Assembly: GCA_017428055.1 (NCBI GenBank)
Contig: JAFRRN010000009.1
Coordinates: forward strand, 1 to 61,269
DNA length: 61,269 bases
Reading direction: 5' to 3'
Origin: Prevotella sp.
GTDB taxonomy: Bacteria > Bacteroidota > Bacteroidia > Bacteroidales > Bacteroidaceae
The notes below the pieces were generated by a model, which searched no databases, had not been told where the DNA came from, and saw nothing but the letters and a program-made list of their open reading frames with translations. The translations under genes were made by a program, and so were the position numbers. Below, piece after piece: positions 15,450 to 54,814 of the stretch; within the stretch, counting starts at the first letter, position 1, and every line of letters begins with the position of its first letter.

Positions 15450-17189
15450 ATGAAAAAAATCTTTACTTTAATTGCAACGACACTCTTCACCATGAGTGTT
15501 TTTGCCGACGAGGCTGCAGTGATCACCATTTCACAAGACACCTACAAGGCAGAGGGAAGTACCAATGACATCTATCTCTTCGAAGGTACCGATGTGACAT
15601 TGGAATTTGTTGACAACGCACGTGCTTGGAAGGTACAGGAACGCCAAGGATGGAACAAGGGCATCAACTTCCAGAACAACAAGCGTGTACGCTTCAACTT
15701 CCCCACTGGGATGAAGGTGTACCGTATCGAGATGGACGGCTATTCATCTGGTGACAACTGGGAATACTTAGGTGCTTACGGATGGTATGAGAATGGAACT
15801 TACGAATGGCAAGACCCCATTGGCTTGGGCGTGAAGGACAACAAAATCATCTACGAACAGGCAAGATTTCCGCTCGACCCTTGCGAGGTGGTGCCCGAGA
15901 ACGAGAACTATGCCACCCCACATGACAATGTGGCTGGTTACACTTTCGCCGTCCTTGATTTCACCGATGAGCCATACGAGGGTGAGTTCAATATGTATTG
16001 GACTGGCAACAACCAGCTGAACGTGGCTTTCCGTATCTATACCACCGCAGAGGCTGCCAAGGCTGCAACGAGCAGCGTGAAGATCCCCACCAACGCCAGC
16101 AACGTGTTTGACCTCTCTACCGTGACATGGGCAGAAGGTGGCGGCGGTCGTGCCAACTACAATGGTAGCCATCTGGATTACGCGCTTGTGGGCGATGAGG
16201 CCATCTTTACCTTGAACAACACGCAGCAAGCCGCATACAAGATCTCTTTCGACTATGTTACGATTATCGAGGACTTCACCGCTGACTTCGTGATTGAAGA
16301 CGCTACGGGTACCCAAGTCTACAAGAGCACAGTTGCCATGCCACGCACAACTCCCGAGAAGGGCACTAATGACTGGAACTATTGGACGACCAACGAGAAT
16401 GCCGACTTCGTGATTCCTGCTTTGGCACCGGGTCTCTACACCTTCCGCATCAAGTACAACGGACAAGGCACATGGAATGACTCTCCCACGCAATTCACCG
16501 CCAACATCAAGAACATCAAGTTTGAGACCATTGATATAGACATCATTGGCGAGTTGGATAACACTACAGGTTGGTGGTCAGCATTCTCCAAGTATTATAC
16601 CATCTACCCCAATAACATCCAGCACATTGAGTTCTACAACTACTCAGACAAGGCAAACAACTGGGACAATTTCCTTGTAGTGCTCGCCAATGTGGCTGGT
16701 CATACAGCAGACCCAAACCTTGATGGTTATGCAGAAGGTTATGCAGAGTACTTCGTGGTTCGTGCCGACAACTATGGTTGGGGAACAAACTATGACGAGA
16801 CCAAACGTGAGAACAATTGGGATTGGAGCAACTTCACCAACATCTTGAATGGTGCTTACGTGAAACTCGACATTGCCCGCAATGGTGGCGAGGTGACGGT
16901 CAATGCAGACGTATTGGGTTCCGACGGCAACACATACTTCCAAAAGTATGTTGCCAACATCCCCGATGCAGAAGCCGCTGTGGTGGCATTCCTCTCAGTA
17001 GAGAAGGGGCATCTCATCGTTGACAATGAGAAGAGCAGCCAGGTAGAGAATCCCGCAGCAAGTGGCATTGAGAATGTAAGGTCACAGATGGGTGCAAGCG
17101 GTGTCCGCTACAACTTGGCTGGTCAGAAGGTGAGCGCATCTTACAAGGGTGTGGTCATTGAGAATGGCAAGAAGTTCATCGTGAAGTAA
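15450..17189 (+). CDS. T9SS surface protein with tryptophan-rich glycan-binding-like domain
   Basis: 579 residues: a signal peptide (MKKIFTLIATTLFTMSVFAD), two beta-rich regions, and a domain at about residues 370-520 (EFYNYSDKANNWDNFLVVL, VVRADNYGWGTNY, NNWDWSNFTNILNGAYVKLDI) that also occurs near the C-terminus of the protein at 1-4194. The tail (YNLAGQKVSASYKGVVIENGKK) is a T9SS-like sorting signal. Trp- and Tyr-rich surfaces suggest sugar binding, but no catalytic motif is seen. It precedes susC by about 100 bp and probably belongs to the same transcript. A surface glycan-binding role in pectin uptake is inferred from context. Confidence 0.78.
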   Translation: MKKIFTLIATTLFTMSVFADEAAVITISQDTYKAEGSTNDIYLFEGTDVTLEFVDNARAWKVQERQGWNKGINFQNNKRVRFNFPTGMKVYRIEMDGYSSGDNWEYLGAYGWYENGTYEWQDPIGLGVKDNKIIYEQARFPLDPCEVVPENENYATPHDNVAGYTFAVLDFTDEPYEGEFNMYWTGNNQLNVAFRIYTTAEAAKAATSSVKIPTNASNVFDLSTVTWAEGGGGRANYNGSHLDYALVGDEAIFTLNNTQQAAYKISFDYVTIIEDFTADFVIEDATGTQVYKSTVAMPRTTPEKGTNDWNYWTTNENADFVIPALAPGLYTFRIKYNGQGTWNDSPTQFTANIKNIKFETIDIDIIGELDNTTGWWSAFSKYYTIYPNNIQHIEFYNYSDKANNWDNFLVVLANVAGHTADPNLDGYAEGYAEYFVVRADNYGWGTNYDETKRENNWDWSNFTNILNGAYVKLDIARNGGEVTVNADVLGSDGNTYFQKYVANIPDAEAAVVAFLSVEKGHLIVDNEKSSQVENPAASGIENVRSQMGASGVRYNLAGQKVSASYKGVVIENGKKFIVK

Positions 17190-28854: not shown

Positions 28855-28862
28855 CAAAGGTA
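28855..28862 (-). promoter_or_regulatory. -7 element of purB operon
   Basis: TACCTTTG followed by CA on the minus strand, 22 bp upstream of the purB start. Confidence 0.7.
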
Positions 28863-28905: not shown

Positions 28906-29106
28906 TTAAAAATTAACATCCCACAACGATTTGCCGAACTTGGCATCGTCACCATCGTCGTCACCACCGATGACAACAGGGTCATCCTCTTCAAATTCTT
29001 TCACGACAAAACTGCCCCGTGGGTCTCCCTGAACCATGGAATCATACTTTGTATGAAAATCTAACACCTTGGAGAATGGTTTTATATATGGTCTTTTATA
29101 GTTCAT
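28906..29106 (-). CDS. Small acidic protein, last gene of the giant-protein operon
   Basis: 66 residues with a basic start (MNYKRPYIKPFSKVLDF) and a very acidic C-terminal half (KEFEEDDPVVIGGDDDGDDA, ending KFGKSLWDVNF). It has no signal peptide, membrane segment or known domain. Similar short proteins with a (K)-x-Y-I-K-P start and an Asp-rich tail ending in W-D/E occur widely in Prevotella, in my recollection, often beside surface-protein genes; their function is not known to me. It starts 6 bp after the dockerin/fimbrillin gene, so it is part of that operon. Possibilities include a secreted peptide precursor or a chaperone; none is proven. Confidence 0.7.
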   Translation of the reverse strand: MNYKRPYIKPFSKVLDFHTKYDSMVQGDPRGSFVVKEFEEDDPVVIGGDDDGDDAKFGKSLWDVNF

Positions 29107-29112
29107 GCCCTA

Positions 29113-30231
29113 CTAATTAAAAATTCTATTGCCGTTGGCATCACGGAGAGAAGTACCCATATTAATCGTGAAAGGATGGATATGCCCCGCCTTCAGCGTA
29201 GCGGTAAACGGGAGGTAAACCGAGCCATACTCATTGGCCGAGCCAACCTTGAATTCATTGTCCTGTTTGAAAATCTTGCATTTGATTTCCAAGTAAGCCG
29301 TCTTGGCATTGTCAGCATCCACGATGGCTGTTCCTCTATCCATGCCTGTTATGGCTTGGGGTATCAAGAAAAGATAGTCGCTCTCATTCTTGGCAAGCAA
29401 AGTCTCCTCCTCCGCATCTACGACGATGTTGTTCTCCTCGCCATCCCGATAAGCCTTCAATGTGAAATCGCTATTGCCACTCACATCGTACCATTGGTCA
29501 GTAAGCAGTGCGTATTTGCCCGATTCATGGACGTTGTGGAGTTTTACTTCTTTCACCTCCACCGTGTAATCTGCCAGGCTGTTGGTCTTGATAAGGGAGA
29601 ACTGAAGGGCGGAACAGACATGGTCGAACACAAGATTCACAACCCCCTGACAGTTGTTCCACGTGTCGGTTTTCTTTGCCACGAGCACATCGCGCTGGTC
29701 ATCGGAGCTTTGTTCTGTTACCACTAACAGGTATGGGTTTCCATCGTTTAGTTCGAAGAAGTCCACATTGCTTTTGTAATAGGTATAATACCCAAATACG
29801 TAGACATCATCATCGTCACCTACAACGGATGACGATGGCCAAGTTCCATTGTTCTCGTAATAGCCCTTTGTCGTAATGCTTAGAGTCTCAGACCTATTTG
29901 TCTTAACCCACTGAATACCATAGAATTTATACATCATATTGATGTAAAAGTAATCCAACGTGTGGGTGAAAACAGCTGGGGCAAGCCGTTTGTTCGCCTT
30001 GGCACCATTGGGCTGAGTGAGCGGGTTTTCCGACACTTGCAGGATAAGCTTTCGCTCTTGCTGTTCGTCGTTGGCGGGATTGCCTTCATCGGGATTTCCC
30101 AATATTTTATTGACGAGGGTCACCACGTCTGAGACGGAAATAGTGCCATCATTGTTGACATCATAATGGTTGCCTTGTGCTTGCACATGAAGCGCGACGA
30201 ACGTCATCGCACAAAAAAGATATTTTCTCAT
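29113..30231 (-). CDS. Secreted protein with dockerin-like repeat and fimbrillin-like body
   Basis: 372 residues. The signal peptide is MRKYLFCAMTFVALHVQAQ. Directly after it stands a single dockerin-type calcium-binding repeat (DVNNDGTISVSDVVTLVNKIL). The rest resembles Mfa-like/fimbrillin family proteins: SNVDFFELNDGNPYLLV, then LVFDHVCSALQFSLIKTNSL (the typical H-x-x-S-x-L-x-F strand) and YLFLIPQAI. No lipobox is present, unlike usual fimbrillins. It is 4 bp after the lipoprotein gene and 6 bp before the small acidic gene. It may be a partner or pilin-like subunit of the giant protein; that is inference from the operon. Confidence 0.75.
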   Translation of the reverse strand: MRKYLFCAMTFVALHVQAQGNHYDVNNDGTISVSDVVTLVNKILGNPDEGNPANDEQQERKLILQVSENPLTQPNGAKANKRLAPAVFTHTLDYFYINMMYKFYGIQWVKTNRSETLSITTKGYYENNGTWPSSSVVGDDDDVYVFGYYTYYKSNVDFFELNDGNPYLLVVTEQSSDDQRDVLVAKKTDTWNNCQGVVNLVFDHVCSALQFSLIKTNSLADYTVEVKEVKLHNVHESGKYALLTDQWYDVSGNSDFTLKAYRDGEENNIVVDAEEETLLAKNESDYLFLIPQAITGMDRGTAIVDADNAKTAYLEIKCKIFKQDNEFKVGSANEYGSVYLPFTATLKAGHIHPFTINMGTSLRDANGNRIFN

Positions 30232-30235
30232 AACT

Positions 30236-31060
30236 TCAATAATAATCTACATTTACTGTCTGGGCAGAGGATGTAATGGTAAACACCGTCCCCGTGTTCC
30301 ATATAGCTTTCTCGTGAACATTATAATAATAAATGGAGGCTTGCTCCCCTTCCACACGTGCATAGACAGTAAGCGAGTAAGGGGCAAGGAACAGGTTTTC
30401 GCCAATGGTTGCCACGCCCCGGCATTCGCCGTTCACCATCACGGCGATAAGGTCGCCCGCTGCTGGTTGCAACACGTCTTGGGCAATCCGGGGCATTTGG
30501 AGCGAAAGGGGCATCTGCACGGGGTATTTGGCACTTCCAGCCAATAATGTGGGCATGTAAATATCATCCACCCCATATACTTTCTCTGGCACAAATGTTT
30601 CCGTGCCTGTCAGCGTGAAGGTCTGCCGTAATTGGCTACAATAATAGCTGAGTGTTATATGGACAGCCTTGTCTGACTCCTCATTTCCAAGCACCTTCAA
30701 GATAAAGGTTACGTCCTTGGTGTTGCCAAGCGCAATGGCTGGCCGTGCCATCGCCCGTATTTCATTACCGATGAAGACTGCCATGAGGTCTTTCTCCGTG
30801 GAATAAGGTACCAACTCTGGTTGCAATGTCACCATCAAGATCATCCAACTCTCATAGTCGCCAGGCTGTGGAGCTGTCCAATCGGGCGTTTCCTCATTGG
30901 CAGACCAATCGATTTTCCAATCGGCTGTGCCAACGGCCTTCTGCCATTTCGTCGTACTTTGTCCTGTGCCAGTAGTAGACGTATTATCGTCGGATGAGCT
31001 GCAGCCCCACATCAACGTGAGGGCTGCCAGCATCATCGCATTATAAATAAACCTTTTCAT
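30236..31060 (-). CDS. Lipoprotein with two V-N-G-E-x-R-G type modules shared with the giant protein
   Basis: 274 residues with a lipobox (LTLMWGCSSSDD) and a Ser/Thr linker. Two related beta modules follow: one around DLMAVFIGNEIRAMARPAI and one around DLIAVMVNGECRGVATIGEN, each followed by strands ending in an aromatic Y-Y or F-T-L segment. The same pattern (D-x-L-x-A-F-x-N-G-E-x-x-G-V) occurs in the giant protein at about residues 2955 and 3265. The gene starts 6 bp after the giant-protein gene. I infer an outer membrane anchor or assembly partner for the giant protein; no named family is recognised. Confidence 0.75.
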   Translation of the reverse strand: MKRFIYNAMMLAALTLMWGCSSSDDNTSTTGTGQSTTKWQKAVGTADWKIDWSANEETPDWTAPQPGDYESWMILMVTLQPELVPYSTEKDLMAVFIGNEIRAMARPAIALGNTKDVTFILKVLGNEESDKAVHITLSYYCSQLRQTFTLTGTETFVPEKVYGVDDIYMPTLLAGSAKYPVQMPLSLQMPRIAQDVLQPAAGDLIAVMVNGECRGVATIGENLFLAPYSLTVYARVEGEQASIYYYNVHEKAIWNTGTVFTITSSAQTVNVDYY

Positions 31061-31066
31061 ATTTTC

Positions 31067-34000
31067 TTACTTAACTACTTTCTTCTTTCCATTATAGATA
31101 TAGACACCTTTCTTTGATGGACGGCCTGGGAGCTTATAGCCTTGCAGCGTGTACCATCCCTCTTGTGGAATGTCAACACGTGTGAAGTCGATGCGTGTTG
31201 GCGTATTTGGCATTCCTACCACGGCATTTGCCTTGTACGTGAGGATGTCGGAAGTAGTGGCGATGATTTCATCCTCCCGCTCCACGGCGAATGAAAGCCC
31301 TTGTTGCTTGTCGCCTCCGATACTCATATAGAAGATGCCGTCCTCATTCATCGTGCTAACACCACACAGCTCGCCATTGGCGAATGCCAACAGACGGTCT
31401 CCTTCTTCCAAATTCAAGCCGTTGGCAATGGCAGTGAGCGACATCGTTGTGGGCGAAGTGGAATAAGCCTTCTTGACAGGAGCCTTGTAAACCATATTGA
31501 TGAACGAGCTGCTTGGCTCAAAGAACGGATAGGTAAATAACACTCTATTTTGTTCTTGACGCAACAGCATGTATCCCTCGCCAGGCTTCATGTATTGGAG
31601 GGTACCCTCCCACTTGCCACTGCCGTTATATCCATTGAAGATGGCAAACTCGTCGTGGCTCTTGATGACATCGCCGTCTTTCGCATAGGTGAAATACTCT
31701 GCGAGGGCAGTCTCCACGGGCAGGTTCACCATCGGCGTATAACCAATGCTATTCCATCCTGAATTGACGATAATGGTTCGCTCTGCCCAATCCTTGACGA
31801 TATAGCCTGACAGCTGCACAGAGATGTCCTTGCTCACCTTAACCGCATAGAAGTTTCGTGGAGAGATAGCCAAACTATCAATATCCTCGGAAATCTTCCA
31901 GTGGTTGTCGGTATAGATAAGGGTCAAGCCATTGGTGTTATCGGTCATGACATCGCCATTTTGCCATGGGAATCCATCGAGCAGTCGGTTGAGGTTCCTG
32001 AATGATTTGCTCTCATAGACATTGAAGGAAACCCAGTTCCAACCCTTCCGCAAGTCGAGTGTCTGCACATACTGGTTGTCAGCATAGAAGATGCAGGGTG
32101 AATCTATGCTTCCATACAACTTGGAGTTCTTAAATTTGATGTTATCATAATTGATGAGCAACATTTCCCTGCCAGTGGCATAGTGCCATAGCTTGAAATA
32201 GAGTTGATCAGATACCGTCGTGTCGTTATAAACAGTAAGATAGAGCATACTCTTTCCCGTGGCCTCATCGTATGAAATATGTGAAACGCCATGGCAAACT
32301 CCCTCTCGGTCAAACACGCCCACGATGTCGCGTGTATCGGTAATGATCTGGTTGTCGTCAAGGCTACCCATCACCACACGTCCCAATATATTCATCGTAT
32401 ATTTGCGCAAATCCCTGCTCACTACCCAGTCTGGCTCTTCACCATAGATGGTGAGATTAAGAGACAGGGGTTCAGAAAGACCTTCTTCGTCTGTCAAGTA
32501 AATAACCTCGTCGTAAGTTCCCACGTTCAAGTTCTTATTGACGGTAAACGTCAAATAGGTTTCTTCCCTTGGACCGATGGTGTTAGTCTGTGGGCTGACA
32601 GTGAGCCATCTCGGACAGTTTTCCACTTTGAATGTATGGTTACCACCGCTAACATTCTTAATCAGTATATCAAAATCCATTCCCTCACCGTATGGTATCT
32701 CATACTTCAAGGTCTTGTCTGACCACCGCAAAGCGTTGCAGTCAACGAAGCAGCTCAATGTGGCTGGCGATGCCATGCTGTTGCCGTTCATGTCTGGAAT
32801 ATCACGGACGGTGACATAGATGGTTCGCTTATTGATGTACTCGGTAGGCTCATCAATGTTAATCAAGAGCTGGTTGTCGCGACCCACATGGCTGAAACCG
32901 AGGTTTTTTAACGTCTCGTAAGGTCTCACGGGTGCGCCTTGACTTTGGTCGATGTGGTTATACAGGTCTTGCTTAGATACCGACTCATCAAAGATGTAGT
33001 CACGCACAGGGGTGCTGGTGGGCAGTTTCGTGGTCTTATCCAACTCATACAAGATATTGCCTTCTGGATCCTTGTGTATTGTCTGACTATAAACGTATGG
33101 AACAAGGACAAGGTTGTTATTCGACTGCCGCTCTTGGCGACTGAAGTTCATGTAAACCTTCAAGCCCGCCTCGTCGCCGTATGGACTCTTGAGGCTATAA
33201 CTCTTGATGAGCGAAAGTGGCAAAGCCTGCTCAAACAAGCAAATCTCATCGAGGTTTCCTTGTAACCAGTTATGGGTGTCAACAATGACGGAATCGGTCT
33301 TGCCCTTGTGGAATGTCGCACCTAACATGGGAATACCACCCGAAATGCCGCCAAGGGAATCGACAGCGAATGAGGCGCGAAGGATGCGGTCCATATAGAT
33401 GTTGCCTATATTGCGCGAGCGGTTGACAGTCATGGCATAATGATGCCAGCGATTGTCGCTATAATCTCCCGATATGTCGATTTGCATACCATTGGTACGA
33501 TATATCAAATTTTCCGCCTCAAAGCCAATGAAGAACTGGTTCTCAGCACCTTCATCTGTGTCAAGCCCCAAACCGTTGCTGATGAGTGCACCGCGTCCCT
33601 CTGGGGTTGTTTTAAACCAGAACATGAGCGTATAGTCCTCATCGTCGGCACGGGTGATGGCATTCTGGTCGAGAGCCAGGCCTCGGTCTTCCCAATCAAG
33701 ACGGAGCGACATGCCTTGTGGCTGCGCCCAAGCCACATTGACGATTCGTGCATGGGCACCCTGTGCCTTGTCGGTGGCATATTCACCCTCGCCCTCATTC
33801 ATTGGGTAATAGTCCACCAAGCCCATCTCATAGCCAGTGAGACGCTTATAGCCGTAAGTGGTTCCCAACTGTAGAGCCGTGAGTGCGCGATACCATACAC
33901 GAGCCTCCATCATGCGACCTTGGTAGAACTGGCAACCACTGTCATAGCGATTCACCTCATTGGTGCGTCCGAAGATAAGATTTCCCGCTCCCGTATAAGG

Positions 34001-37000
34001 CTCTTCCATTTCAAAGCTACCCACAGACTTACCACCGATGTACAACGACAAGCGGCATGGATCCTTTTCCTTGGTAGGCTGGCTGATGACCATCGCCACT
34101 TGTTGGAAGATGCTATAGTCTATCGTATCATTCGACTTGTATTCACTTTGCCTGTCAACCACCACCTTGAGTTTCTGGTCAGCAGTAATCCACAGCTGTA
34201 ACTTCTTGTTGTTAGTACCATGTGAGAAGAGGGGCATATCCACTCCTTTCACGTCAGGTTTAATCATCATGCTAATGGTCAAGTCCTTGCTGGCAAAGTT
34301 TCGAACCACTTCCGTCTCGATACTTCCTTTGCTGTCATTCCCAGAGAATTGGAGCGACACGTCTTCAGACACATTATTATTGTTCACCTCGCCTTTCACC
34401 TCGAAATTGACTTTGTGGTCAAGGTAGTTGTGCTCGATTGCCTCAGAGAAATTGAAGATAATGTTCTCGCCAATGTCAAGAACTCCATCAATCGGCTCTG
34501 GTGTTCCAAAGAGCTGCGGGCGACGGGTGTCCTTGATACCGCTGAGGATCTGCGAAGACGATGTCAGGAAGCTGTTACCGTCTCGTATATATAGCACGGC
34601 ACGGAGGTCGTATGCCTTTTCCATGACAACACCCTCGCCATAGAACTCCGTGTTGATATATCCATTGTCAGGAATTTTCTCCTTCACGCCACTCGCCAAT
34701 GCCATGAGCGAATCGTTGTCATAGTAAGAGCAGAGGTTTGTCCAGTAGTCATCGCCACGCGCCGTCTCCTTATATTGGAACTCGATGTGGTCGAAGTTCT
34801 TTTGTTTCCTGTCGAAGCCATCAATCTTGACGGGGAGGAAATAGCCTTTCTTCTCATGGAATGGCGCATCGGTATTCATCACCCACTTGTCGCCCGGGGT
34901 GGAGATGTTGACAGGCCCTGCCATACGCAGGAAATGCACGTCAAACTTCACCTTGTCATAGACATTGACATCGTTCTTGGAAACGATACCAATTTCCAAG
35001 TTCTCATAGTCGAAATCCTCGCCGGCATATACCTCAAGGGTCTTTTCTGTTATCTGACCTGGTACTACATACATGTTTCGGCCGTCGCCAGTGATAGGAC
35101 TTCCATCCATCATCAGCTTGGCACCCTTGGGATTGGTTGCCTCTTCTTGGAAAAGAGTATAGAACGAGAGGGGTGTGGAGATGGCATTAGGCTCTTCGCT
35201 ATCGTTAGTGAGGTAAACTTTGAAACGAGCAGGCTCTCCGTATGGTACACCACTGATGCTCTGTTTATCCAATGTAATCTTGGGGTTCTCAATTTTCTTG
35301 GTGCGGGCATCGAGGACGGTTCCAGAACGATAGAACATCGTCCTACGCTCATCTTCCCACGGCTGGACTGTTGCACCGCCTCGTGTGCGATAGACAAAGC
35401 CACGTGCAAACCTGACGGGGTCATCTTTACCCAAATCCAAATGTCGCTCAAGATAGTCGTCGTTGTAGTCCACTTGTGCATAGAAGTTCTGGCTGGTGAA
35501 CACATCCAACACATCATTGCTCTTCTTGGTGGAGCCCACAACGGAAGTTGCACGATAGACATCAAAGTCGAGATGCGAGGAATTGTTCATTCCGATGGAG
35601 AACGATTCCTTCCTATTGTAGGTCTTGGCGGTGGTGGTGTTGTATTTCACATCGTAGGACATGGTGGGATAGACGAGATACTTAAAACAGCTACCCGTGA
35701 ATTTGACCTCTGTCTCCGATCTCCACCAAGAAGGTTTCAGATTGTCATTCTTCATGACCTTTGACAAGAAACTGACAACCATTTTGCCCCCAACCCTGCC
35801 CAATACATTCAAGATATCAAGGGTGATATCCCCTGCATTGGCTGACGAGCTGAAATATTCATCTGTATTGATACCCAATGGCCATGTCATCGTACTGCTA
35901 TTGGAATACGAGCTCTCGAAATTCTCGCTGTATGTCATGCCCGTGCCACCATCTACGTCAAAGTTCTTCACCAAATCAGTAGCGGTCAGTTTATCCTCTT
36001 CGTTCCGGATGATCATTTTCACCCATTCAAACATGATGCCGCAATATTTCTGTACATCATCCGTTTGGGCGGTATCATCATACTTGTCTGGCACGACGAC
36101 ACAATAATTCATGTCATTCCTCTTGGTTGACGCATTCTTGTGCATGGACAAGGTGTAATAGAAAGGATCGTCACCGACCATGTTCATCACGGCAAAATCC
36201 TTATCGTCGGGATCCTTCAGCGAGAGATACACTTTCTTGCCCGTGGCATTGGCTTGTTTCTGGGCGTCTTCCGGCGTACCGATATACATCAGCGCACGGC
36301 ATTGTTCGGCCAATTCGGGTATGAGTTGGGTGGTGATATATTTCTGTGTGTGTGCGAAAGTGGAGGTAAGCTCCGCCCCGAAGACCAAAGACTCATCCCT
36401 CACGAGGTGATAGAGTTTGCCATTGGCATCCTTGCCTTGGGCTATATCCACCATGGTACCCGCCTTGTCGGTGCTGCCCGTCACTAAGGTTGCCCCCGGA
36501 AGCCGTCCCTTCATCTGCTGGAAGATACTGTCGGGAATGGCACGGATGGTCACACCTTGCTTGACGATGTTGTTTTGCACCACGCCCATATATATATCAG
36601 CATTGGCACCCACCATCGACGTTGCCGAACTGGTCTTGATGTCTTCCGTGGCTGTCATGGTGTAAGTGAAAGCACGGTTGCCCTTCCCGGAGAATACGAT
36701 GTCGTTGGAATATTGGAATCCCGTCGTGGCATCTTGCAAGATACCGTATGACGGTCCCATGGCACCAACAGTAGAAGTAAACGTGACACCATAATAATTA
36801 TTCATGGTGGTACCGTTCTTCAAATCCATACTCACACCAGCCGACCAAGCCATGTCCATTGTATAGGTGTACTTCAGTGTGGAGCCTTTCGAGAGTGTTG
36901 CAGAACTGGTTCCCCCTGGTGGGTCGCGCAGGATATCCACAAGCGTGGGTTGCTCCGCATTGAGGATGTCATTGGATCCAGGCCTGGTGTATATATTCAG

Positions 37001-40000
37001 GATATAAGCCTTCAGTGGTTCTGCCTCGTATGTTTTGCCATCAAGTTCGAGCGTCATCGAAACGGTGCGCAGGGCATCGTCCTTGGTTAGGTTATAGTTT
37101 ACCTGCTGTGCGTAGAGATTCACAATGCCTACGCCCTCCTCGTTGAGTTGCACCTCTTCCTTATGGGTGGAACTGACCATGCCATTGTGTACCACCACCT
37201 TGCCGCCATTCATCTGCACCACATCAATGGTATCACTCAATGAGTTGTTGTTCCAATAATAACGCTCCACCGCTTCCAAGCGATAGGAATAATAGCGGTT
37301 GATGCTAAACACGGGATGTCCAAACGTATATTTCGTTTTCATCACAGTGGGAGCGTCATCCTTGTCGGATGCCTTCTCGGACACTTGATACACCAACGGC
37401 ACCTCCGATTTGTCCCCGCCGAGGTTGGTGGCAGTATAGGAATAGTCTCCGTAATAGTCGAAGAGACCGTAGCCCAACTGCTTGTATGTCAGCTCCACGG
37501 GGTTGTGGTAGATACGGTTGTAAATGGCATTGTAGGTTACGGTGGGATCTTTAATCGTCACCTTGGCAAGGTTTACCCACGAGCCTTCGTATTTCTTTTC
37601 TATAGGCTTGATGGCTTCTGTCAAGTCAACGACATCACTCACCTTTCCCTCTTGGAACAATGTGGCATATCCCTCACAAAAAATCTGTTGCACTTTCCAT
37701 TTTACGGGTGGCAGTTCTATCATGTATTCACCCGTGATAGTGTCAGGCTTCACCACAATGCGCTTACGATACATATTCACCGTTGTCACATAATCGGTGG
37801 GGTCGCCCTGCTTTCCATTATGATAAATGGTATCGCGCTCTGAGAGCAATGGGTTGACATTATCGAAGACAATATTTGACGTGTTGTCACCCTCAAGGGT
37901 CAGTATCATCGTCACGTCGCGACCGAGGTTGTTGCGCGAGAGGCTGTTACCCAAAGGCAAATTGCCCTGCGTGTCGCCTCCCACTACGCGACCAATCAAC
38001 TTCACCTTCGTCTTGTCATAGAAATAGATGTCGGTGAGCTTATCCGTGAAGTTATGGGTGAATTTCCCACCGTCTGTAAAATCATGACCATCCATCTTGG
38101 CGACGATGGTTCTCTTACCATCCAACACGTAGAAGGTGAACTTCCCATCAAAGTCTGTCTCCAACAACTTGCCAGAGGCAGTATATACATCATGACCGTC
38201 AACAGAGAAATTGGCGCCATGCACGGGGATGGATGTACCTTCATACATCACGTAGCCAGAGAAACGGTGTCCCGAGGTGACGATGAAGTCTTTCAACTCT
38301 CGGTAATTGATTGAATCATTGAACGTGACATCATATTGGCTATTTTCCAATTCAATCCTGTCGGAGCTGGTAACACCCACATTATAAACGACTGTCCTGC
38401 CTTTGAAATAGGAAAGGTTCTCAATCATGAACTTTCCCGTCTCATCGGTCGCAACGGTTTCCGTGAAACTGTTGCCGCCTTTGGCAGTAATGGTGACGGA
38501 TACATTCGGTATTCCCGTGCCATCGGCGAAACGCACGTAACCCTCCATCTTGCAACTGTGCTTACAGCCTGCCACCACGGAGTCGGAATAATGATAGCTG
38601 GTACCCTCGCAGTCTATCGCCGAGCGCACCGTATATTCATAGTCATCGAGCATCGAGACAGTTTTGTCCTCATAAATCATATCTGTGAGGTTGGTGGCTA
38701 TAACTTCCCATTTATGACTTCCCACCTTGCAGCGCAACACCTCAAAATAGTCCACCACGTCGTTTTCCACATCCCACTGAATCAAGACACTGCTCTGGCG
38801 GGACGTTGTGGTAAGCTTTTTGGAAACTTTGCCTGATGCCTCGTAATAGAAAGTAGCACCAACTACATTAATAATAACAGTGTTGGCATCAAAATTTTCA
38901 GGTACTAAAATGGGTGAAATACCAAACTCGTTGTCTGATGCTTGCCAATTGTTTCCGATCACCTCTCCCCATTCTTCTTGATTTCTTGGTAATTTTTCTC
39001 CCTGCGTTTCATCGCAATACGATTGCCAGGCATATTCGCCCCAGGTACTCCAGTAGCATTTTTGGAGGGAGCAATCGCCACTGAAGTAGAACGATTTAGC
39101 GAACTGGTTTGAGCCGCTGGAATCTATGTATTTAAAACGCTCATCCCCTTCTCCTGCCGAGAAGAAGAGAGAATTATCAATCTTACATGGATTCTCGCAA
39201 TGATTGATGAAGCCAGCAAACGTGGGGTAACCTTTCCCAGACTCTAATTTCTTGGCATAGACAAGGCAATTGTTAATGGTAATATCCTTGCCTTTCAACA
39301 CAAAGCCAGCGGCTTGATTGAAATTCTTAAATTCTCCCTCCACGCCGCAATTGCTGATAACAAGGTTTTCTGCCCTGTCCACCATGCCGGAAATATCCTC
39401 ATAATATCCGATATAGGCATCATATTTGATATTGAGGTTACTGATTCTGGCATTTTTCACGTTCTTAAAAAGAGTGAGGTCTTCAGCTATGATGGTATGT
39501 CCATTTCCATCAAAGACACCACTGAATGGATACTTTTCCGTTCCGACGATATATCTGTCATCGCCACCCATCAGGTGGAGGTCGGTATTCAGTAACACTT
39601 GGGTCTCACAAAATCTATTCCCATTGCCAGAATTTACGTAAGAAACAAATTTATCCCAATCGCTTTCAGAATTGATGACAATCTGTTTGATGCCATTTTC
39701 AATGGGGCTTGTGCCTCTGCATGTGGAAACCTCTACATAGTAATTGATACATGGGCGCGTGAAAGTGAGTTGCTTCTGACGGGCAAGAATCTCTGCCCGT
39801 GTCAGGGTGTATTCCACACTGTCCACCAAAGCACCTTGACGGTTAAACATCTTCACCTTCATTTTCATTTCCGCACGGTCATCCCAAACATAATAAAACG
39901 AATCATCGTCGTATTCCCATGTCACGTTGGCGGTATATTGGTCTTTGCCCGCTTGCTCCATCTTGGCACTCTTGACATGATACAGCCTCATAGGATCCAA

Positions 40001-41194
40001 ACTTACAGAACGAGAAGCGACCGTGGGGTTACCGTTCCACCCCCAGAAATCGGTGGCGGTACGGCGTATGCGGTAGCGAACATGGGGGAAATAGCCGTAT
40101 TCATCTTTCATGTCTTGGGTAAGCGAGGCGATGATGGTTGAATCGGTATAGGAATAGCTATGCTTGTCTAAATCAAACATTTCCATGCCAATGGTGACAA
40201 AATCTTCATCTTTCCCTGTTATGGACCGTTGTATCTCAAAGGCATCGCCTTCTATCAGGTCAGCGTCATTAAGGGCATTGATTTTCCACTTGAGCTTGAC
40301 AGTCCTCTTGCTGTCGTTATAGATAGAATCGGAAAAGTCCATCGGGGCATGAATCATCTTCATATCCACAAACGGACTTCTGACCGTTACGATGGATTTA
40401 AACTGATCCTTATAGGTCACCTGGACATATACAGACCGATAAGGCTGGGTGACATCAAGCGACACCTTGCCCGAGGATTTCTTGGCATCCAACACGATTT
40501 GATGTTCATTGTTGAGACTGTCAAGATAAACGGCCTTAGCCGAAATGACAGAGTCCGCGCCCACCATCCAAGGAATCAAAATCTTACCAACGCTATCCGG
40601 TACGATGACTGGCTCTGTAACCATCACCTCCAACACGGGAGGTGCTTCGGGAACGGTAAACTCAAAAGATGTAAGATTCGACACTCTTTGATGGGATCTG
40701 GCAGTACCATCGCGATCCACATCCCAAACGAATTTAAGGGTCTTCCCTAAATATTTGTCAGGTATCACCCACCTTGCTTGTACAAAGAACACGTCATGGT
40801 TTTTCTCTCCATAAAGATTCTTTGACTCCACAGTTCCCTTTTTAAGTTGATACTCTTCGAAATCTTTCCCAACCTTGACAAACATTTCGCCATCGATATC
40901 GGTTTTTAGTCTTGTAGGCGCATAACCTGATTTGTCATCGTCCAAACATTTCCAATACAAAAGCGTAACCTCGTCATTGGAACCTTCCACCTTCAATTTG
41001 AGGTATCCATCCACGACCCAACAGTTAGCTCCATCCTGGTCTACAATAGGACATGAAATGGTGATTTCGCGCACCCCTTTGGGTGTCACCCTATAGTTGG
41101 AGCTGTTGTCAACACCCGTGGCAAATGCCATCTGCGGCATCGCCATGACCATGAAGGTGAGCAATGCCATTGTCCACCATCGTTTCTTAGTCAT
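31067..41194 (-). CDS. Giant multidomain T9SS surface protein (about 3375 residues)
   Basis: Start at 41194 gives a signal peptide (MTKKRWWTMALLTFMVMAMPQMAFA); an ATG at 41209 is the alternative. In order: beta-rich and fibronectin-III-like region (about 30-510); right-handed repeat region resembling GLUG motifs (520-690, FSGVFDGNGHTIIAEDL); carboxypeptidase-regulatory-like modules (880-1080); a large unnamed core containing VDILRDPPGG (near 1420) up to about 2000; two LamG/jellyroll modules (about 2305-2470 and 2518-2690, LMFWFKTTPEGRGALISNG); a BACON-like module (2840-2930); modules with repeated GWN(W/S) motifs; and a T9SS tail (YTLQGYKLPGRPSKKGVYIYNGKK). It leads a four-gene operon. Likely a surface adhesin or binding scaffold; substrate unknown. 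Confidence 0.85.
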   Translation of the reverse strand: MTKKRWWTMALLTFMVMAMPQMAFATGVDNSSNYRVTPKGVREITISCPIVDQDGANCWVVDGYLKLKVEGSNDEVTLLYWKCLDDDKSGYAPTRLKTDIDGEMFVKVGKDFEEYQLKKGTVESKNLYGEKNHDVFFVQARWVIPDKYLGKTLKFVWDVDRDGTARSHQRVSNLTSFEFTVPEAPPVLEVMVTEPVIVPDSVGKILIPWMVGADSVISAKAVYLDSLNNEHQIVLDAKKSSGKVSLDVTQPYRSVYVQVTYKDQFKSIVTVRSPFVDMKMIHAPMDFSDSIYNDSKRTVKLKWKINALNDADLIEGDAFEIQRSITGKDEDFVTIGMEMFDLDKHSYSYTDSTIIASLTQDMKDEYGYFPHVRYRIRRTATDFWGWNGNPTVASRSVSLDPMRLYHVKSAKMEQAGKDQYTANVTWEYDDDSFYYVWDDRAEMKMKVKMFNRQGALVDSVEYTLTRAEILARQKQLTFTRPCINYYVEVSTCRGTSPIENGIKQIVINSESDWDKFVSYVNSGNGNRFCETQVLLNTDLHLMGGDDRYIVGTEKYPFSGVFDGNGHTIIAEDLTLFKNVKNARISNLNIKYDAYIGYYEDISGMVDRAENLVISNCGVEGEFKNFNQAAGFVLKGKDITINNCLVYAKKLESGKGYPTFAGFINHCENPCKIDNSLFFSAGEGDERFKYIDSSGSNQFAKSFYFSGDCSLQKCYWSTWGEYAWQSYCDETQGEKLPRNQEEWGEVIGNNWQASDNEFGISPILVPENFDANTVIINVVGATFYYEASGKVSKKLTTTSRQSSVLIQWDVENDVVDYFEVLRCKVGSHKWEVIATNLTDMIYEDKTVSMLDDYEYTVRSAIDCEGTSYHYSDSVVAGCKHSCKMEGYVRFADGTGIPNVSVTITAKGGNSFTETVATDETGKFMIENLSYFKGRTVVYNVGVTSSDRIELENSQYDVTFNDSINYRELKDFIVTSGHRFSGYVMYEGTSIPVHGANFSVDGHDVYTASGKLLETDFDGKFTFYVLDGKRTIVAKMDGHDFTDGGKFTHNFTDKLTDIYFYDKTKVKLIGRVVGGDTQGNLPLGNSLSRNNLGRDVTMILTLEGDNTSNIVFDNVNPLLSERDTIYHNGKQGDPTDYVTTVNMYRKRIVVKPDTITGEYMIELPPVKWKVQQIFCEGYATLFQEGKVSDVVDLTEAIKPIEKKYEGSWVNLAKVTIKDPTVTYNAIYNRIYHNPVELTYKQLGYGLFDYYGDYSYTATNLGGDKSEVPLVYQVSEKASDKDDAPTVMKTKYTFGHPVFSINRYYSYRLEAVERYYWNNNSLSDTIDVVQMNGGKVVVHNGMVSSTHKEEVQLNEEGVGIVNLYAQQVNYNLTKDDALRTVSMTLELDGKTYEAEPLKAYILNIYTRPGSNDILNAEQPTLVDILRDPPGGTSSATLSKGSTLKYTYTMDMAWSAGVSMDLKNGTTMNNYYGVTFTSTVGAMGPSYGILQDATTGFQYSNDIVFSGKGNRAFTYTMTATEDIKTSSATSMVGANADIYMGVVQNNIVKQGVTIRAIPDSIFQQMKGRLPGATLVTGSTDKAGTMVDIAQGKDANGKLYHLVRDESLVFGAELTSTFAHTQKYITTQLIPELAEQCRALMYIGTPEDAQKQANATGKKVYLSLKDPDDKDFAVMNMVGDDPFYYTLSMHKNASTKRNDMNYCVVVPDKYDDTAQTDDVQKYCGIMFEWVKMIIRNEEDKLTATDLVKNFDVDGGTGMTYSENFESSYSNSSTMTWPLGINTDEYFSSSANAGDITLDILNVLGRVGGKMVVSFLSKVMKNDNLKPSWWRSETEVKFTGSCFKYLVYPTMSYDVKYNTTTAKTYNRKESFSIGMNNSSHLDFDVYRATSVVGSTKKSNDVLDVFTSQNFYAQVDYNDDYLERHLDLGKDDPVRFARGFVYRTRGGATVQPWEDERRTMFYRSGTVLDARTKKIENPKITLDKQSISGVPYGEPARFKVYLTNDSEEPNAISTPLSFYTLFQEEATNPKGAKLMMDGSPITGDGRNMYVVPGQITEKTLEVYAGEDFDYENLEIGIVSKNDVNVYDKVKFDVHFLRMAGPVNISTPGDKWVMNTDAPFHEKKGYFLPVKIDGFDRKQKNFDHIEFQYKETARGDDYWTNLCSYYDNDSLMALASGVKEKIPDNGYINTEFYGEGVVMEKAYDLRAVLYIRDGNSFLTSSSQILSGIKDTRRPQLFGTPEPIDGVLDIGENIIFNFSEAIEHNYLDHKVNFEVKGEVNNNNVSEDVSLQFSGNDSKGSIETEVVRNFASKDLTISMMIKPDVKGVDMPLFSHGTNNKKLQLWITADQKLKVVVDRQSEYKSNDTIDYSIFQQVAMVISQPTKEKDPCRLSLYIGGKSVGSFEMEEPYTGAGNLIFGRTNEVNRYDSGCQFYQGRMMEARVWYRALTALQLGTTYGYKRLTGYEMGLVDYYPMNEGEGEYATDKAQGAHARIVNVAWAQPQGMSLRLDWEDRGLALDQNAITRADDEDYTLMFWFKTTPEGRGALISNGLGLDTDEGAENQFFIGFEAENLIYRTNGMQIDISGDYSDNRWHHYAMTVNRSRNIGNIYMDRILRASFAVDSLGGISGGIPMLGATFHKGKTDSVIVDTHNWLQGNLDEICLFEQALPLSLIKSYSLKSPYGDEAGLKVYMNFSRQERQSNNNLVLVPYVYSQTIHKDPEGNILYELDKTTKLPTSTPVRDYIFDESVSKQDLYNHIDQSQGAPVRPYETLKNLGFSHVGRDNQLLINIDEPTEYINKRTIYVTVRDIPDMNGNSMASPATLSCFVDCNALRWSDKTLKYEIPYGEGMDFDILIKNVSGGNHTFKVENCPRWLTVSPQTNTIGPREETYLTFTVNKNLNVGTYDEVIYLTDEEGLSEPLSLNLTIYGEEPDWVVSRDLRKYTMNILGRVVMGSLDDNQIITDTRDIVGVFDREGVCHGVSHISYDEATGKSMLYLTVYNDTTVSDQLYFKLWHYATGREMLLINYDNIKFKNSKLYGSIDSPCIFYADNQYVQTLDLRKGWNWVSFNVYESKSFRNLNRLLDGFPWQNGDVMTDNTNGLTLIYTDNHWKISEDIDSLAISPRNFYAVKVSKDISVQLSGYIVKDWAERTIIVNSGWNSIGYTPMVNLPVETALAEYFTYAKDGDVIKSHDEFAIFNGYNGSGKWEGTLQYMKPGEGYMLLRQEQNRVLFTYPFFEPSSSFINMVYKAPVKKAYSTSPTTMSLTAIANGLNLEEGDRLLAFANGELCGVSTMNEDGIFYMSIGGDKQQGLSFAVEREDEIIATTSDILTYKANAVVGMPNTPTRIDFTRVDIPQEGWYTLQGYKLPGRPSKKGVYIYNGKKKVVK

Positions 41195-41255
41195 GAATAA
41201 TGAAATCATAAGATATCTGTGTTAGTTATTTGACTAATAAATTATTACAAGCTTG

Positions 41256-41263
41256 CAAATGTA
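41256..41263 (-). promoter_or_regulatory. -7 element of the giant-protein operon
   Basis: TACATTTG followed by CA on the minus strand, about 62 bp upstream of the ATG at 41194. I see no other promoter-like element before the following three genes. Confidence 0.65.
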
Positions 41264-52096: not shown

Positions 52097-54814
52097 ATGA
52101 AGAAAATCTTTACTTTTTTAATCATCGCAATGGCTCTCTCCGTGAGTGCCAACGCACAGAAGTACCGTAAGACTTGGGACTTCCGTAATGGTTTCAGCGC
52201 AGCGACCATCGCCGCCCTGCAAGCCGACATGGAGCAGAACGGTGCCACGGGAAGCACATCCCACTGGCGCGACTATGAGAAAGATGCCGCCCTCACCGGC
52301 GGCGGGCAGGGCGCATTCTGGTGTGCCGACAATGGCGCAGCGGGAAACGATGAAGGCTATGTCACGACAACCGTGGACGGCGTAAGCACCGTCATTCCCG
52401 AATTGGAAGGCTTGACGCTCAAGGGCATCAAGGCAAAGGGCCTTGTCATTGCCTATAACTTCGCACAGGCTGCCAATGAGAACGCACCCAACGGCTTGTT
52501 CCCTAACGGCAAGAGCTTCCTATGGTTCAACGGCAAGAACTTGACCTTCAACATTAAGAACGTGAAGAAGGGAGAGACCCTGAAGATTGGTATCGAGTCT
52601 CACAAGAATACCGAGGCTCGTGGCATCAACATCTCCGTGGACGGCGAGACGCTTTCTCCCGAGTCGGGCAACAATGTCCCCACGTATTTTGAGGATGTGG
52701 TATGGAACATCCCTGACGACACCCCCGACGTGGATGACTATACCGACGTGAAGGTGACAACCACCAACGGTTGCCACATCTATTACATTATCGTGGGCGA
52801 AGGCGATACTCCCGAGGACCTCACCACCAACATCGCCCTCATCGGGGCGTTTGCCGGCATTCCCCTTGAGTCGTTCCCCTTCTATTCGGCCCTGGCCTCC
52901 CAAGAGAACATGAAGGTGACATCCATCGACGTAACGGGCGACATCTCCGCTGTAAGCAGCGAGAGCCTCCAGGCATACGACGTGTTAGTGGTCGCTCCCA
53001 ACATCTCTACAGACAATGCCATCGTACCCATCCTGAAAGAGGCTATGCCCTTCGTGCCGATGCTCAATGCCAATGCCAACCTCTACAATGCGTGGGGTTA
53101 TGGCGAGGCTGTGGAGACCCAAGCACCATTCGGCGTGGTGAAAGATGTCAAGAATGAACTCTTCAAGAATATCGAACTGCCTGAAATAGACGAGGGTGCG
53201 GGTATCGTATTCACCAACGAGACACCTATCACCGGCGTGAAATTGGGCGACTATTTCGCCGATGATGACATCCTGGCTACCGTATATGGCGACCCCACCA
53301 CCGTTGCTATCCATACCCACAACACCTATCACAACGGGTATATCTACGTGCCTTATAACACCTTGGCCATCCTTGACGCTTACGCCGAGACGGCACCCAC
53401 ACTGTTGCAAAACGCTGTCAGCGTATTGGCAGCATCCAAGGCAGAGATAACCAAGACCCCATCGCCAACGTTCCAACTGGAATACAAGAACCTCAATACC
53501 AACGTCATCATCAAGAGTGCCAATAGCAAGGCCAAGATCTACTACACCTTGGACGGCACCGACCCCACCACAGAGAGCACTCTCTACACTGAACCATTCA
53601 ACCTGACCGAGGAGACAACCGTCAAGGCATCTGCCATCGCCGAGGGATATAAGCTCAGTGACCCCGCATCCATCCTCGTGGAGATGAAGAGACAAGCAGA
53701 GACGCCCGTCATCAGCTACACGACAGAGAACGGCAAGGCTGTGGTGACGATTACCTGCGCCACACCCAATGCCAACATCTGGTACAACTACACGGCATCT
53801 GCCGACTCCACGGCATCGTCTCCCTATACCGGACCGATTACATTGACAGAGAACAAAACCGTTTCCGCTTTCGCCCTAAATGATGAGTTTGTTCTCTCCG
53901 AGGTAGCATCTGAAAACATTTACATCAAGGACGCAAAGGTGCGTATTGACGTGGTGGCACACATGGACGCTAACCCCACAGACTACAACAATGGCTCTAC
54001 CTCCACCGCCTACTATTTCTCTTGGGGCAAGGACAAGAGTGCTTATTCCTATTGGAACACAGAGTCGGAGCCGATTATCGAGACCGATGAAGACGGCAAT
54101 GAGAACATTGTGGGCTACTCTGAGCTGAACCCCGAGGAGACGGTAGACTTCGGCAACGGCTGGAAGATCGTCTCCCGCGGCCACGTGATGATCTGGGAAA
54201 ACATCAAGGCAGGCAAACAATATGGCGTGGGGTCTGCTTACAACCCCGCCACCGTGGATGACTATTCCGACTTGGTGACCAATTACTACATCAACATCGG
54301 CGAATGGAACACCTCCTACCCACGCAATGGTATCATTGCCACGACGGTGAAATATGCCGGACCGTTCGACATCGTGTCGTTTATCTCCAACGGTAACAGC
54401 GGAGGCTCGCCCGAGTGCGTCTTTGAAGTATCTGCAGATAGCGTCAACTGGGAACAGGTGGGCGACACCTGCGTACTCGCCGGACAGCGCCTCTATCGCA
54501 AGTTTGTACGTAGCTATGAGGGAACAGACGAGGTGTATGTCCGTACACGTATCGCTGACGCAAACTCCAAGGCTGGCTACTACGACATCTATATCATGAA
54601 CGAAGGCGACGAGTCGAAAGCCCTTGAAGAACAGATGGACGAGGACTATAAGAACAACGCCAGCGGCATCGAGAACGTCAACGCCTCCTCACGCATCGCC
54701 AGCGTACCAACCACCATCTACGACATCAACGGCATTCGCCACAACGCCCTGCGCCAAGGCATCAACATCGTGAGGATGAGTGATGGCAAGGTGAAGAAGA
54801 TGATGGTTAAGTAA
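52097..54814 (+). CDS. T9SS surface protein with chitobiase-C-terminal-like repeats
   Basis: 905 residues from the ATG at 52097 (signal peptide MKKIFTFLIIAMALSVSANAQ). An N-terminal beta domain (YRKTWDFRNGFS; LWFNGKNLTFNIKNVKKGE) is followed by a Rossmann-like region (about 245-440, ALIGAFAGIPLESFPFYSAL, YDVLVVAPN), then two CHB_HEX_C-like modules (about 465-540, KIYYTLDGTDPTTES; and 555-620, ANIWYNYTASAD), a further beta domain, and a T9SS tail (TTIYDINGIRHNALRQGINIV). No catalytic motif. It lies between kdgK and a PL1 lyase, so a surface role in pectin binding is possible. Confidence 0.8.
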   Translation: MKKIFTFLIIAMALSVSANAQKYRKTWDFRNGFSAATIAALQADMEQNGATGSTSHWRDYEKDAALTGGGQGAFWCADNGAAGNDEGYVTTTVDGVSTVIPELEGLTLKGIKAKGLVIAYNFAQAANENAPNGLFPNGKSFLWFNGKNLTFNIKNVKKGETLKIGIESHKNTEARGINISVDGETLSPESGNNVPTYFEDVVWNIPDDTPDVDDYTDVKVTTTNGCHIYYIIVGEGDTPEDLTTNIALIGAFAGIPLESFPFYSALASQENMKVTSIDVTGDISAVSSESLQAYDVLVVAPNISTDNAIVPILKEAMPFVPMLNANANLYNAWGYGEAVETQAPFGVVKDVKNELFKNIELPEIDEGAGIVFTNETPITGVKLGDYFADDDILATVYGDPTTVAIHTHNTYHNGYIYVPYNTLAILDAYAETAPTLLQNAVSVLAASKAEITKTPSPTFQLEYKNLNTNVIIKSANSKAKIYYTLDGTDPTTESTLYTEPFNLTEETTVKASAIAEGYKLSDPASILVEMKRQAETPVISYTTENGKAVVTITCATPNANIWYNYTASADSTASSPYTGPITLTENKTVSAFALNDEFVLSEVASENIYIKDAKVRIDVVAHMDANPTDYNNGSTSTAYYFSWGKDKSAYSYWNTESEPIIETDEDGNENIVGYSELNPEETVDFGNGWKIVSRGHVMIWENIKAGKQYGVGSAYNPATVDDYSDLVTNYYINIGEWNTSYPRNGIIATTVKYAGPFDIVSFISNGNSGGSPECVFEVSADSVNWEQVGDTCVLAGQRLYRKFVRSYEGTDEVYVRTRIADANSKAGYYDIYIMNEGDESKALEEQMDEDYKNNASGIENVNASSRIASVPTTIYDINGIRHNALRQGINIVRMSDGKVKKMMVK

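Follow-up and report, generated by a model that had tools for sequence, protein, structure and literature searches.

Organization of the locus

The stretch of DNA analyzed in this work (61,269 nucleotides (nt) of the Prevotella sp. contig JAFRRN010000009.1, assembly GCA_017428055.1, hereafter the window) carries on its minus strand an operon of four genes, namely a giant gene (31067-41194; 3375 residues, or 3380 from a second in-frame ATG at 41209), a companion lipoprotein gene (30236-31060; 274 residues), a fimbrillin-like gene (29113-30231; 372 residues) and a small-protein gene (28906-29106; 66 residues). The giant and the companion share a module and are almost always found together, while the small protein belongs to a family with an N-terminal Y-x-x-P motif, linked to genes for cargo of the type IX secretion system (T9SS), for which we propose the role of a peptide precursor guided by a recognition element of the kind known from ribosomally synthesized and post-translationally modified peptides (the RiPP recognition element, RRE). 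The initial annotation had described four genes 4 to 6 bp apart behind one visible promoter, and this description holds: the gaps are 6, 4 and 6 nt, and a single Bacteroidota-type -7 box (TACATTTG, 41256-41263, minus strand), located by a TAnnTTTG pattern search and by reading the sequence, stands 5' of the giant gene. The next intergenic box on this strand (28855-28862) lies 5' of the gene after the operon, and the five further minus-strand boxes between the two all fall within the giant gene.

Along the giant protein (all features on the minus strand), we recognized a CarboxypepD_reg-like domain (residues 884-944, 38363-38545; Pfam E 2e-7, with 31.7 bits against a cut-off of 32.3), two Laminin_G_3 (concanavalin A-like, ConA-like) stretches in Pfam, the best of which covers residues 2288-2442 (33869-34333; E 1.8e-21), a module A of the D-I-V-G-V-F type (32075-32434), a module B of the D-x-L-x-A-F-x-N-G-E type (31148-31468) and a T9SS-like sorting domain at the C-terminus (C-terminal domain, CTD; 31070-31249, ending in ..WYTLQGYKLPGRPSKKGVYIYNGKKKVVK). 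The latter matches a profile built from this genome's own sorting domains (alignment A6) with E 2.1e-21, the giant's CTD being itself one of the 13 seeds of A6; TIGR04183 gave no match to the giant at E ≤ 1. The relatives of the giant have kept a C-terminal end of the WYTLxGxKLxxRPTKKGVYIYNGKK type, and the T9SS translocon protein SprA/Sov (TIGR04189) is found in this genome (G000) and in 39 of the 40 genomes compared, G000 included. For residues 1000-3375, 51 of 150 same-genus genomes gave relatives at E ≤ 1e-20, which fall into two groups, one closer and one more distant. The N-terminal 500-800 residues are poorly conserved, the best local matches often starting at residues 477-794, which would suit an outermost part that is exchanged or evolves quickly, as the tip of an adhesin does. 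A sequence search of the PDB with the giant, the lipoprotein and the fimbrillin returned nothing useful, and the nine Foldseek matches of the giant's C-terminus at E ≤ 1e-3 (pilin/adhesin and other multi-domain proteins) had TM-scores of 0.06-0.17 and were not used.

Conservation of the operon among relatives

Relatives of the giant were taken from named genomes as the best 80 loci of at least 364 confirmed relatives. Nearly all of these 80 come from metagenome-assembled genomes, with titles that often mention the ruminant stomach, and they include the cultured Xylanibacter brevis ATCC 19188, in which all four genes are present (L130). Adding the window and removing five near-identical loci and two in which the giant runs off the contig end leaves 74 non-redundant loci, and in 73 of them the companion follows the giant directly, with a median gap of 6 nt (the exception is L158). 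The second half of the operon behaves differently: among the 60 loci with at least 2.5 kb downstream, 19 have a fimbrillin gene (split into two frames in L164), the same 19 have a small gene, and 41 lack both. (An iterated hidden Markov model of the fimbrillin drifted into the companion family; the profiles were built from alignments A2-A4.) On a tree of the giant with 61 rows, the label for this pair needs 9 changes, at least 8 of them forced by well-supported branches: the two genes are gained or lost as one. Behind the closest giant, that of L135 (72% identical), no such pair is present. The four genes are thus not one indivisible set, the fimbrillin and the small gene being a second unit. 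The initial annotation had taken the four as a single set and had proposed scoring conserved order among homologs, and what stands of it is the giant/companion pair, together nearly always, while the other two genes form a separate, optional unit present in 19 of 60 loci. In the literature searched we found no description of the operon, of the giant/companion pair or of the small family.

The optional pair also occurs just in front of the giant (L124, L152, L154), and in L106 a second giant follows it, so that paralogous operons appear to sit head to tail in these four loci. In 18 of the 19 loci (L098, L103, L106 and L161 among them), the gap from fimbrillin to small gene lies between -4 and 33 nt, and this near overlap suggests translational coupling of the two genes.

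The companion lipoprotein and the shared module

The companion contains two modules (residues 64-164, 30569-30871, and residues 170-274, 30239-30553, minus strand), whose kinship with modules A and B of the giant had been noticed by eye, from a short motif, in the initial annotation. Profile-profile comparison bears this out: both companion modules match both giant modules with hhalign probabilities of 90.7-97.9 (97.5-97.9 for module A, 90.7-97.2 for module B) and E from 1.2e-6 to 3.6e-13, the companion modules match each other with E 1.8e-18 and the giant modules each other with E 2.5e-13. As a control, the companion modules were compared with six other segments of the giant; of these 12 comparisons, 11 stayed under a probability of 3 and one reached 42.6. 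Structure prediction, which the same annotation had named as a way to disprove the kinship, agrees with the profiles. In AlphaFold2 models (pLDDT, the predicted local distance difference test score, of 89.5, that of the companion, and 89.3), both companion modules and giant module B have six strands and giant module A has seven, with a strand order common to all four (compared without superposition). A Foldseek search with the companion gave no match at E ≤ 1e-3; neither it nor the search with the giant's C-terminus found a close solved relative.

We infer that the companion docks on or anchors the giant, and the modules of the two proteins may bind each other. Most companions start as lipoproteins: a regular expression for the lipobox, which is too strict, finds it in 44 of 73, and reading the list of misses by eye left five without one (L104, L129, L137, L143, L157). 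The L129 companion ends in a T9SS-type domain, and a dockerin-like sequence stands at the start of the L104 companion and at the end of that of L157, as read in L046 and L061, whose contigs have equal lengths. A giant T9SS protein with a module-sharing lipoprotein fits well with the surface machine that the initial annotation had envisaged, in which the lipoprotein served as anchor and the small protein as an accessory or signal; this last part needs revision, given that the small protein belongs to a genome-wide family and is not just an accessory of the operon.

The fimbrillin-like protein

The fimbrillin-like protein matches Mfa_like_1 over residues 114-359 (E 6.8e-13, 49.6 bits against a cut-off of 27), as do 17 of the 19 members of the fimbrillin alignment A3, the window included. 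A lipobox N-terminus is found in 20 of the 23 fimbrillin-like genes (again counting the window). In the other three (the window, L098 and L161), a signal peptide is followed, in the lipobox place, by a single dockerin-like/EF-hand half-repeat, which in the window covers residues 23-46 (30094-30165, minus strand; alignment A3) and matches Dockerin_1 with E 6e-4, below the curated cut-off. The dockerin reported at this N-terminus in the initial annotation is therefore there as one half-repeat that replaces the lipobox in 3 of 23 genes, and it is not of the cellulosome (scaffoldin) type, which needs two F-hand repeats. Because such a sequence swaps with the lipobox in three fimbrillins and in two of the companions without a lipobox, it is probably not a scaffoldin dockerin but an exchangeable element for retention at the surface. 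In L198, the frame that lies about 212 nt in front of a small YxxP gene has a dockerin-like repeat at its end and not a sorting domain, which hints that dockerin-like ends and sorting-domain ends mark surface proteins of one kind.

A family of small YxxP proteins linked to T9SS cargo genes

The small protein of the window has its Y-x-x-P motif (YIKP, 29077-29088, minus strand) near the N-terminus, with Y and P invariant in alignments A4 and A5, and ends in a Trp-acidic tip, LWDVNF (28909-28926), whose W is invariant in A5. When this genome was searched with the profile of the operon small proteins (A4), 14 matches reached E ≤ 10; one of them is interrupted by a stop, and the 12 intact ones besides that of the window lie directly behind T9SS sorting-domain genes, at -4 to 58 nt. 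From the own-genome small proteins behind cargo genes we built a second profile, A5 (threshold E ≤ 0.05), in which the family traits are the N-terminal Y-x-x-P, a variable acidic middle or tail and often a C-terminal Trp (within the last 8 residues in 58 of 85 members). Among 40 same-genus genomes with a completeness of at least 90%, 31 contain matches to it (27 in this genome and 20 in the next), while in a sample of 99 genomes from across the order only 4 do, this genome being one of them. A Ser stands at P+15 to P+18 in 69 of the 85 members, against 22.8 expected, with a peak at P+17. The family is large and apparently undescribed; the available portion of a survey of Bacteroidales RiPPs (PMC10352776) has no occurrence of YxxP or type IX.

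The association with cargo genes can be counted from both sides. Starting from 57 small-family loci, of which one (L205) had no readable small open reading frame (ORF), we scored 56 for the nearest long frame upstream, and in 37 of them this is a sorting-domain gene, at distances up to 380 nt; by origin, these are 19 of 25 loci from this genome, 18 of 28 from other genomes of the genus and 0 of 3 from elsewhere. The six own-genome misses include L229, where the start was misread and a cargo gene is present, and the window's own gene, which lies behind the fimbrillin. Starting from the cargo genes, a small YxxP ORF lies within 200 nt of 28 of 89 located CTD gene ends in this genome, against 1 of 601 non-CTD, non-operon ORFs of at least 150 residues (from flanks in other genomes; Fisher 5e-26); without the 11 seed genes the count is 17 of 78 (Fisher 3e-16). 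The 89 ends are the best 92 of 129 matches to the CTD profile, minus two in the window and one whose end was not located, and in at least five cases the gene end seems to have been read in the wrong frame. The sole control positive, at the 5' end of L135, is a small protein with SSLWD as its last residues, encoded 41 nt downstream of a 797-residue gene with no recognized sorting domain, and it may be a true family member behind another kind of gene. With reversed sequences as the null, 1 such ORF is found against 29 in the giant loci (1.59 Mb) and 1 against 30 in the cargo loci (134 kb).

The RRE/kinase/protease cassette

Y-x-x-P is the motif bound by stand-alone PqqD-type RREs in the leaders of lasso peptides and of linear polyphosphorylated peptides (LPP), as described in the available portions of PMC13381572 and PMC12710340. 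This genome has one PqqD match (PF05402, E 4.2e-13, above the cut-off), on contig 58 of G000, and some other genomes have several. At about 27.7-29.3 kb of that contig (L344), genes for an HprK-like kinase, an S26/S24-like protease and the PqqD RRE stand together, close to rpoD and to a gene for an exported protein of about 190 residues. The arrangement recurs: in 20 of 20 loci the PqqD gene has beside it an HprK-like kinase, with a P-loop SG[TSA]GKST and an NDDNP motif, and a signal-peptidase/S24-like frame is found next to both in all 20 (17 picked as genes and three by frame), with rpoD a near neighbor in 16. The Ser-His spacing of the protease is 38-39 residues in 17 of the 17 measured, and in three of these no Asp is found 19-33 residues after the His.

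Across the 40 same-genus genomes, PqqD is found in 35 and the kinase in the same 35, both missing from the same five, and by the listed coordinates the two genes lie no more than 2 kb apart in 34 of the 35. All 31 genomes with small-family matches have both PqqD and the kinase (Fisher 1.9e-4), and the five genomes lacking them have no small match. SprA is kept in all five, so that the distribution of the small family follows that of the cassette and not that of T9SS, a reading with which genome G010 (discussed below) agrees; the idea that small genes simply go with the presence of T9SS does not agree with the same five genomes. On a tree of SprA with 37 genomes (leaving out G010, with no SprA match, and G017 and G054, with split genes), the absence of the cassette needs at least four changes. 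The kinase is present in 15 of 99 genomes across the order.

Proposed mechanism and alternative explanations

Putting these observations together, we propose that the giant is exported by type IX secretion, displaying ConA-like (LamG) domains and two β-sandwich modules near its C-terminus, and that the lipoprotein, made of two copies of the giant's own module, would dock on it or anchor it. The optional unit would add a fimbrillin-like surface protein and the small protein. The latter would be a peptide precursor whose N-terminal Y-x-x-P is bound by the stand-alone PqqD-type RRE, whose Ser, about 17 residues past the motif, is phosphorylated by the HprK-like kinase and whose leader is removed by the signal-peptidase-like protease, with the cassette, encoded elsewhere in the genome, acting in trans. 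The peptide product may then serve the surface protein encoded beside the small gene. Docking on the RRE, phosphorylation and cleavage are proposed because the same three gene types occur as in LPP, together with the spaced Ser and the Ser-His spacing of the protease. We consider this explanation of the operon parts, with the small proteins as RRE-guided, phosphorylated and cleaved peptides, somewhat probable as a whole. The wider proposal, that a RiPP-type machine matures a dedicated small phosphopeptide for many T9SS surface proteins and helps to export, anchor or decorate them, is put forward tentatively and may well prove wrong.

Several observations weigh against this explanation. In the window, no small gene follows the sorting-domain matches at 4057-4191 and 17052-17186, and of 18 non-giant CTD genes in flanks from other genomes only 3 are followed by one. 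Of the 28 positives, 11 had served as seeds of the CTD profile, and the control genes come from other genomes. A first test at the gene level yielded p 0.14 for small ORFs behind CTD genes, a value explained by the counting of giants as CTD genes and of operon fimbrillins as non-CTD genes. The window's small protein has no Ser at P+15 to P+18; its Ser residues stand at P+2, P+13 and P+22, and alignment A4 suggests a short insert near the expected position. The kinase matches HprK_rel_A (E 1.6e-4) and ScmC (1.9e-6) below their curated cut-offs and has no Pfam match, the protease matches Peptidase_S24 and sigpep_I with E of about 1e-3, likewise below the cut-offs, and no solved relative of the RRE or the kinase was found. 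An ABC transporter motif is present in only three of the 20 cassette loci (L345, L359, L361), and no nucleoside triphosphate (NTP) transferase was noticed beside the cassette in the 20 loci, no profile search having been made for it. None of these loci (332 kb) has a credible small gene near the cassette, the sole strict YxxP match (two nested starts of one frame in L349) looking like chance, and consequently the link between the small genes and the cassette is one of co-occurrence only. The co-occurrence itself has irregularities: in G004 the kinase and PqqD are about 24 kb apart, with a single weak small match (E 0.01); G010 has small matches and cassette genes with no SprA match; outside the genus, the kinase is found in two of three small-positive genomes, G229 having none; and G016, G018, G061 and G076 have cassette genes and no small match. 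Since G018 is the nearest kin of G020 and G061 that of G058, the four changes on the tree do not each stand for a clean joint loss; the pattern of these two genomes would fit a loss of the substrates before the enzymes.

The position of the small genes, beside cargo genes and not in the cassette, is also what one would expect if the small proteins bound the PqqD-like protein unmodified and acted as cytosolic, cargo-specific T9SS pilots or chaperones, the kinase and the protease serving something else. Short N- and C-terminal motifs around a variable acidic middle would suit such an adaptor, and T9SS cargo crosses Sec unfolded (according to the available part of PMC10202324). We regard this alternative as unlikely, given that the kinase and the RRE are missing from exactly the same five genomes and that Ser is enriched near the expected phospho-acceptor site. 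A plainer possibility is an ordinary adhesin operon with an uncharacterized small protein, in which the correlation with the RRE cassette would have arisen by accident, through descent and draft genomes. Only 40 genomes were compared, the cassette-less G069 and G081 are close kin, and the nearest kin of G020 and G058 are also without small matches; on the other side, the SprA tree calls for at least four changes, the presence of SprA in all five cassette-less genomes means that neither loss of T9SS nor gross incompleteness explains the pattern, and the linkage to cargo genes stands without the cassette, so that we give this reading a distinctly low probability. Finally, the small proteins could be secreted lasso/paeninodin-like RiPPs, antimicrobial or signaling, with T9SS cargo genes as mere expression hosts; in two of the seven small proteins compared, the YxxP N-terminus resembles the lasso precursor models NF033524 and NF033528 weakly (E 0.05-0.2). 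This is very improbable: the lasso leader peptidase B2 (PF13471) has no match in this genome and is found in 5 of the 40 genomes at E ≤ 0.001 (one over the cut-off), and a small gene behind 28 of 89 cargo genes argues against mere hosting.

Other features of the window

The TAnnTTTG box occurs 46 times in the window on both strands, against 28.1 expected by shuffling, and is usable as a promoter marker in this genome; a sigma-70 promoter scan was uninformative (26 found, 26.0 expected), and the TAnnTTTG box was used instead. The site listing for the window has no terminator-like site 3' of the small gene. Besides that of the giant, the A6 profile finds sorting-domain matches on the plus strand at the two positions given above and at 54653-54772, and on the minus strand at 57958-58137, the last two being weak; the window is rich in predicted T9SS cargo genes.

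Comparison with known systems

Surface adhesin operons with partner genes are already known. The SprB adhesin operon of F. johnsoniae (sprC, sprD, sprB, sprF) encodes a giant T9SS-exported protein with dedicated partners, and the operon described here resembles it in coding for a giant, presumably T9SS-exported, surface protein together with dedicated partner proteins; it differs in having a companion lipoprotein made of the giant's own module and, in addition, genes for a fimbrillin and a peptide. As a surface module, the giant/companion pair is clear and conserved, and lends itself to a direct search for its ligand. With the Mfa/FimA-type fimbrillins of Bacteroidales (PF13149), the fimbrillin-like protein shares the Mfa_like_1 match and, in most genes of its family, the lipobox; the differences are that we saw no further gene for a pilus subunit or accessory protein in the operon and that a dockerin-like repeat takes the place of the lipobox in three loci.

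The closest parallel for the small family is the LPP system of Bacillota reported by Popov and co-workers (PMC13381572), in which, in the portions of the report available, an RRE presents a YxxP precursor, phosphate is added to a Ser directly behind the leader by an HprK-like kinase, and the leader is cut by a signal-peptidase-like enzyme (LppS, S29/H68, with a Ser-His spacing of 39). In both systems the genes for an HprK-like kinase and a stand-alone RRE are neighbors, together with that for a signal-peptidase-I-like protease, which is here a putative one, and the precursors are alike in size, carry Y-x-x-P near the N-terminus and a Ser some 15-17 residues past the P, and vary at the C-terminus; like LPP, the Prevotella genome has no lasso leader peptidase. 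Of the LPP motif YxxPxVLxHQxIxFETxxS, the YxxP and the spaced Ser are present here, and the VLxHQxIxFET part is not seen in A4 and A5. The systems differ in host, since the same portions state LPP to be restricted to Bacillota and the present set is in Bacteroidota; in layout, each Prevotella genome having many scattered small genes, often behind T9SS cargo genes, and none seen at the cassette; and in accessory genes, a transporter being found at few of the Prevotella cassettes, while the LPP loci, as described there, have an MsbA-like transporter and an NTP transferase. The biological role of RRE/kinase/protease cassettes is called unknown by their discoverers in the available text (PMC13381572), and the present proposal, if true, would give them a testable one, linking RRE-guided peptide maturation with type IX secretion as a post-translational layer of the latter and, if our reading is right, bringing into our view of T9SS in Prevotella a family of short genes that is abundant in the genus. 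Such a tie to secretion would make the small-peptide system more than a variant of LPP.

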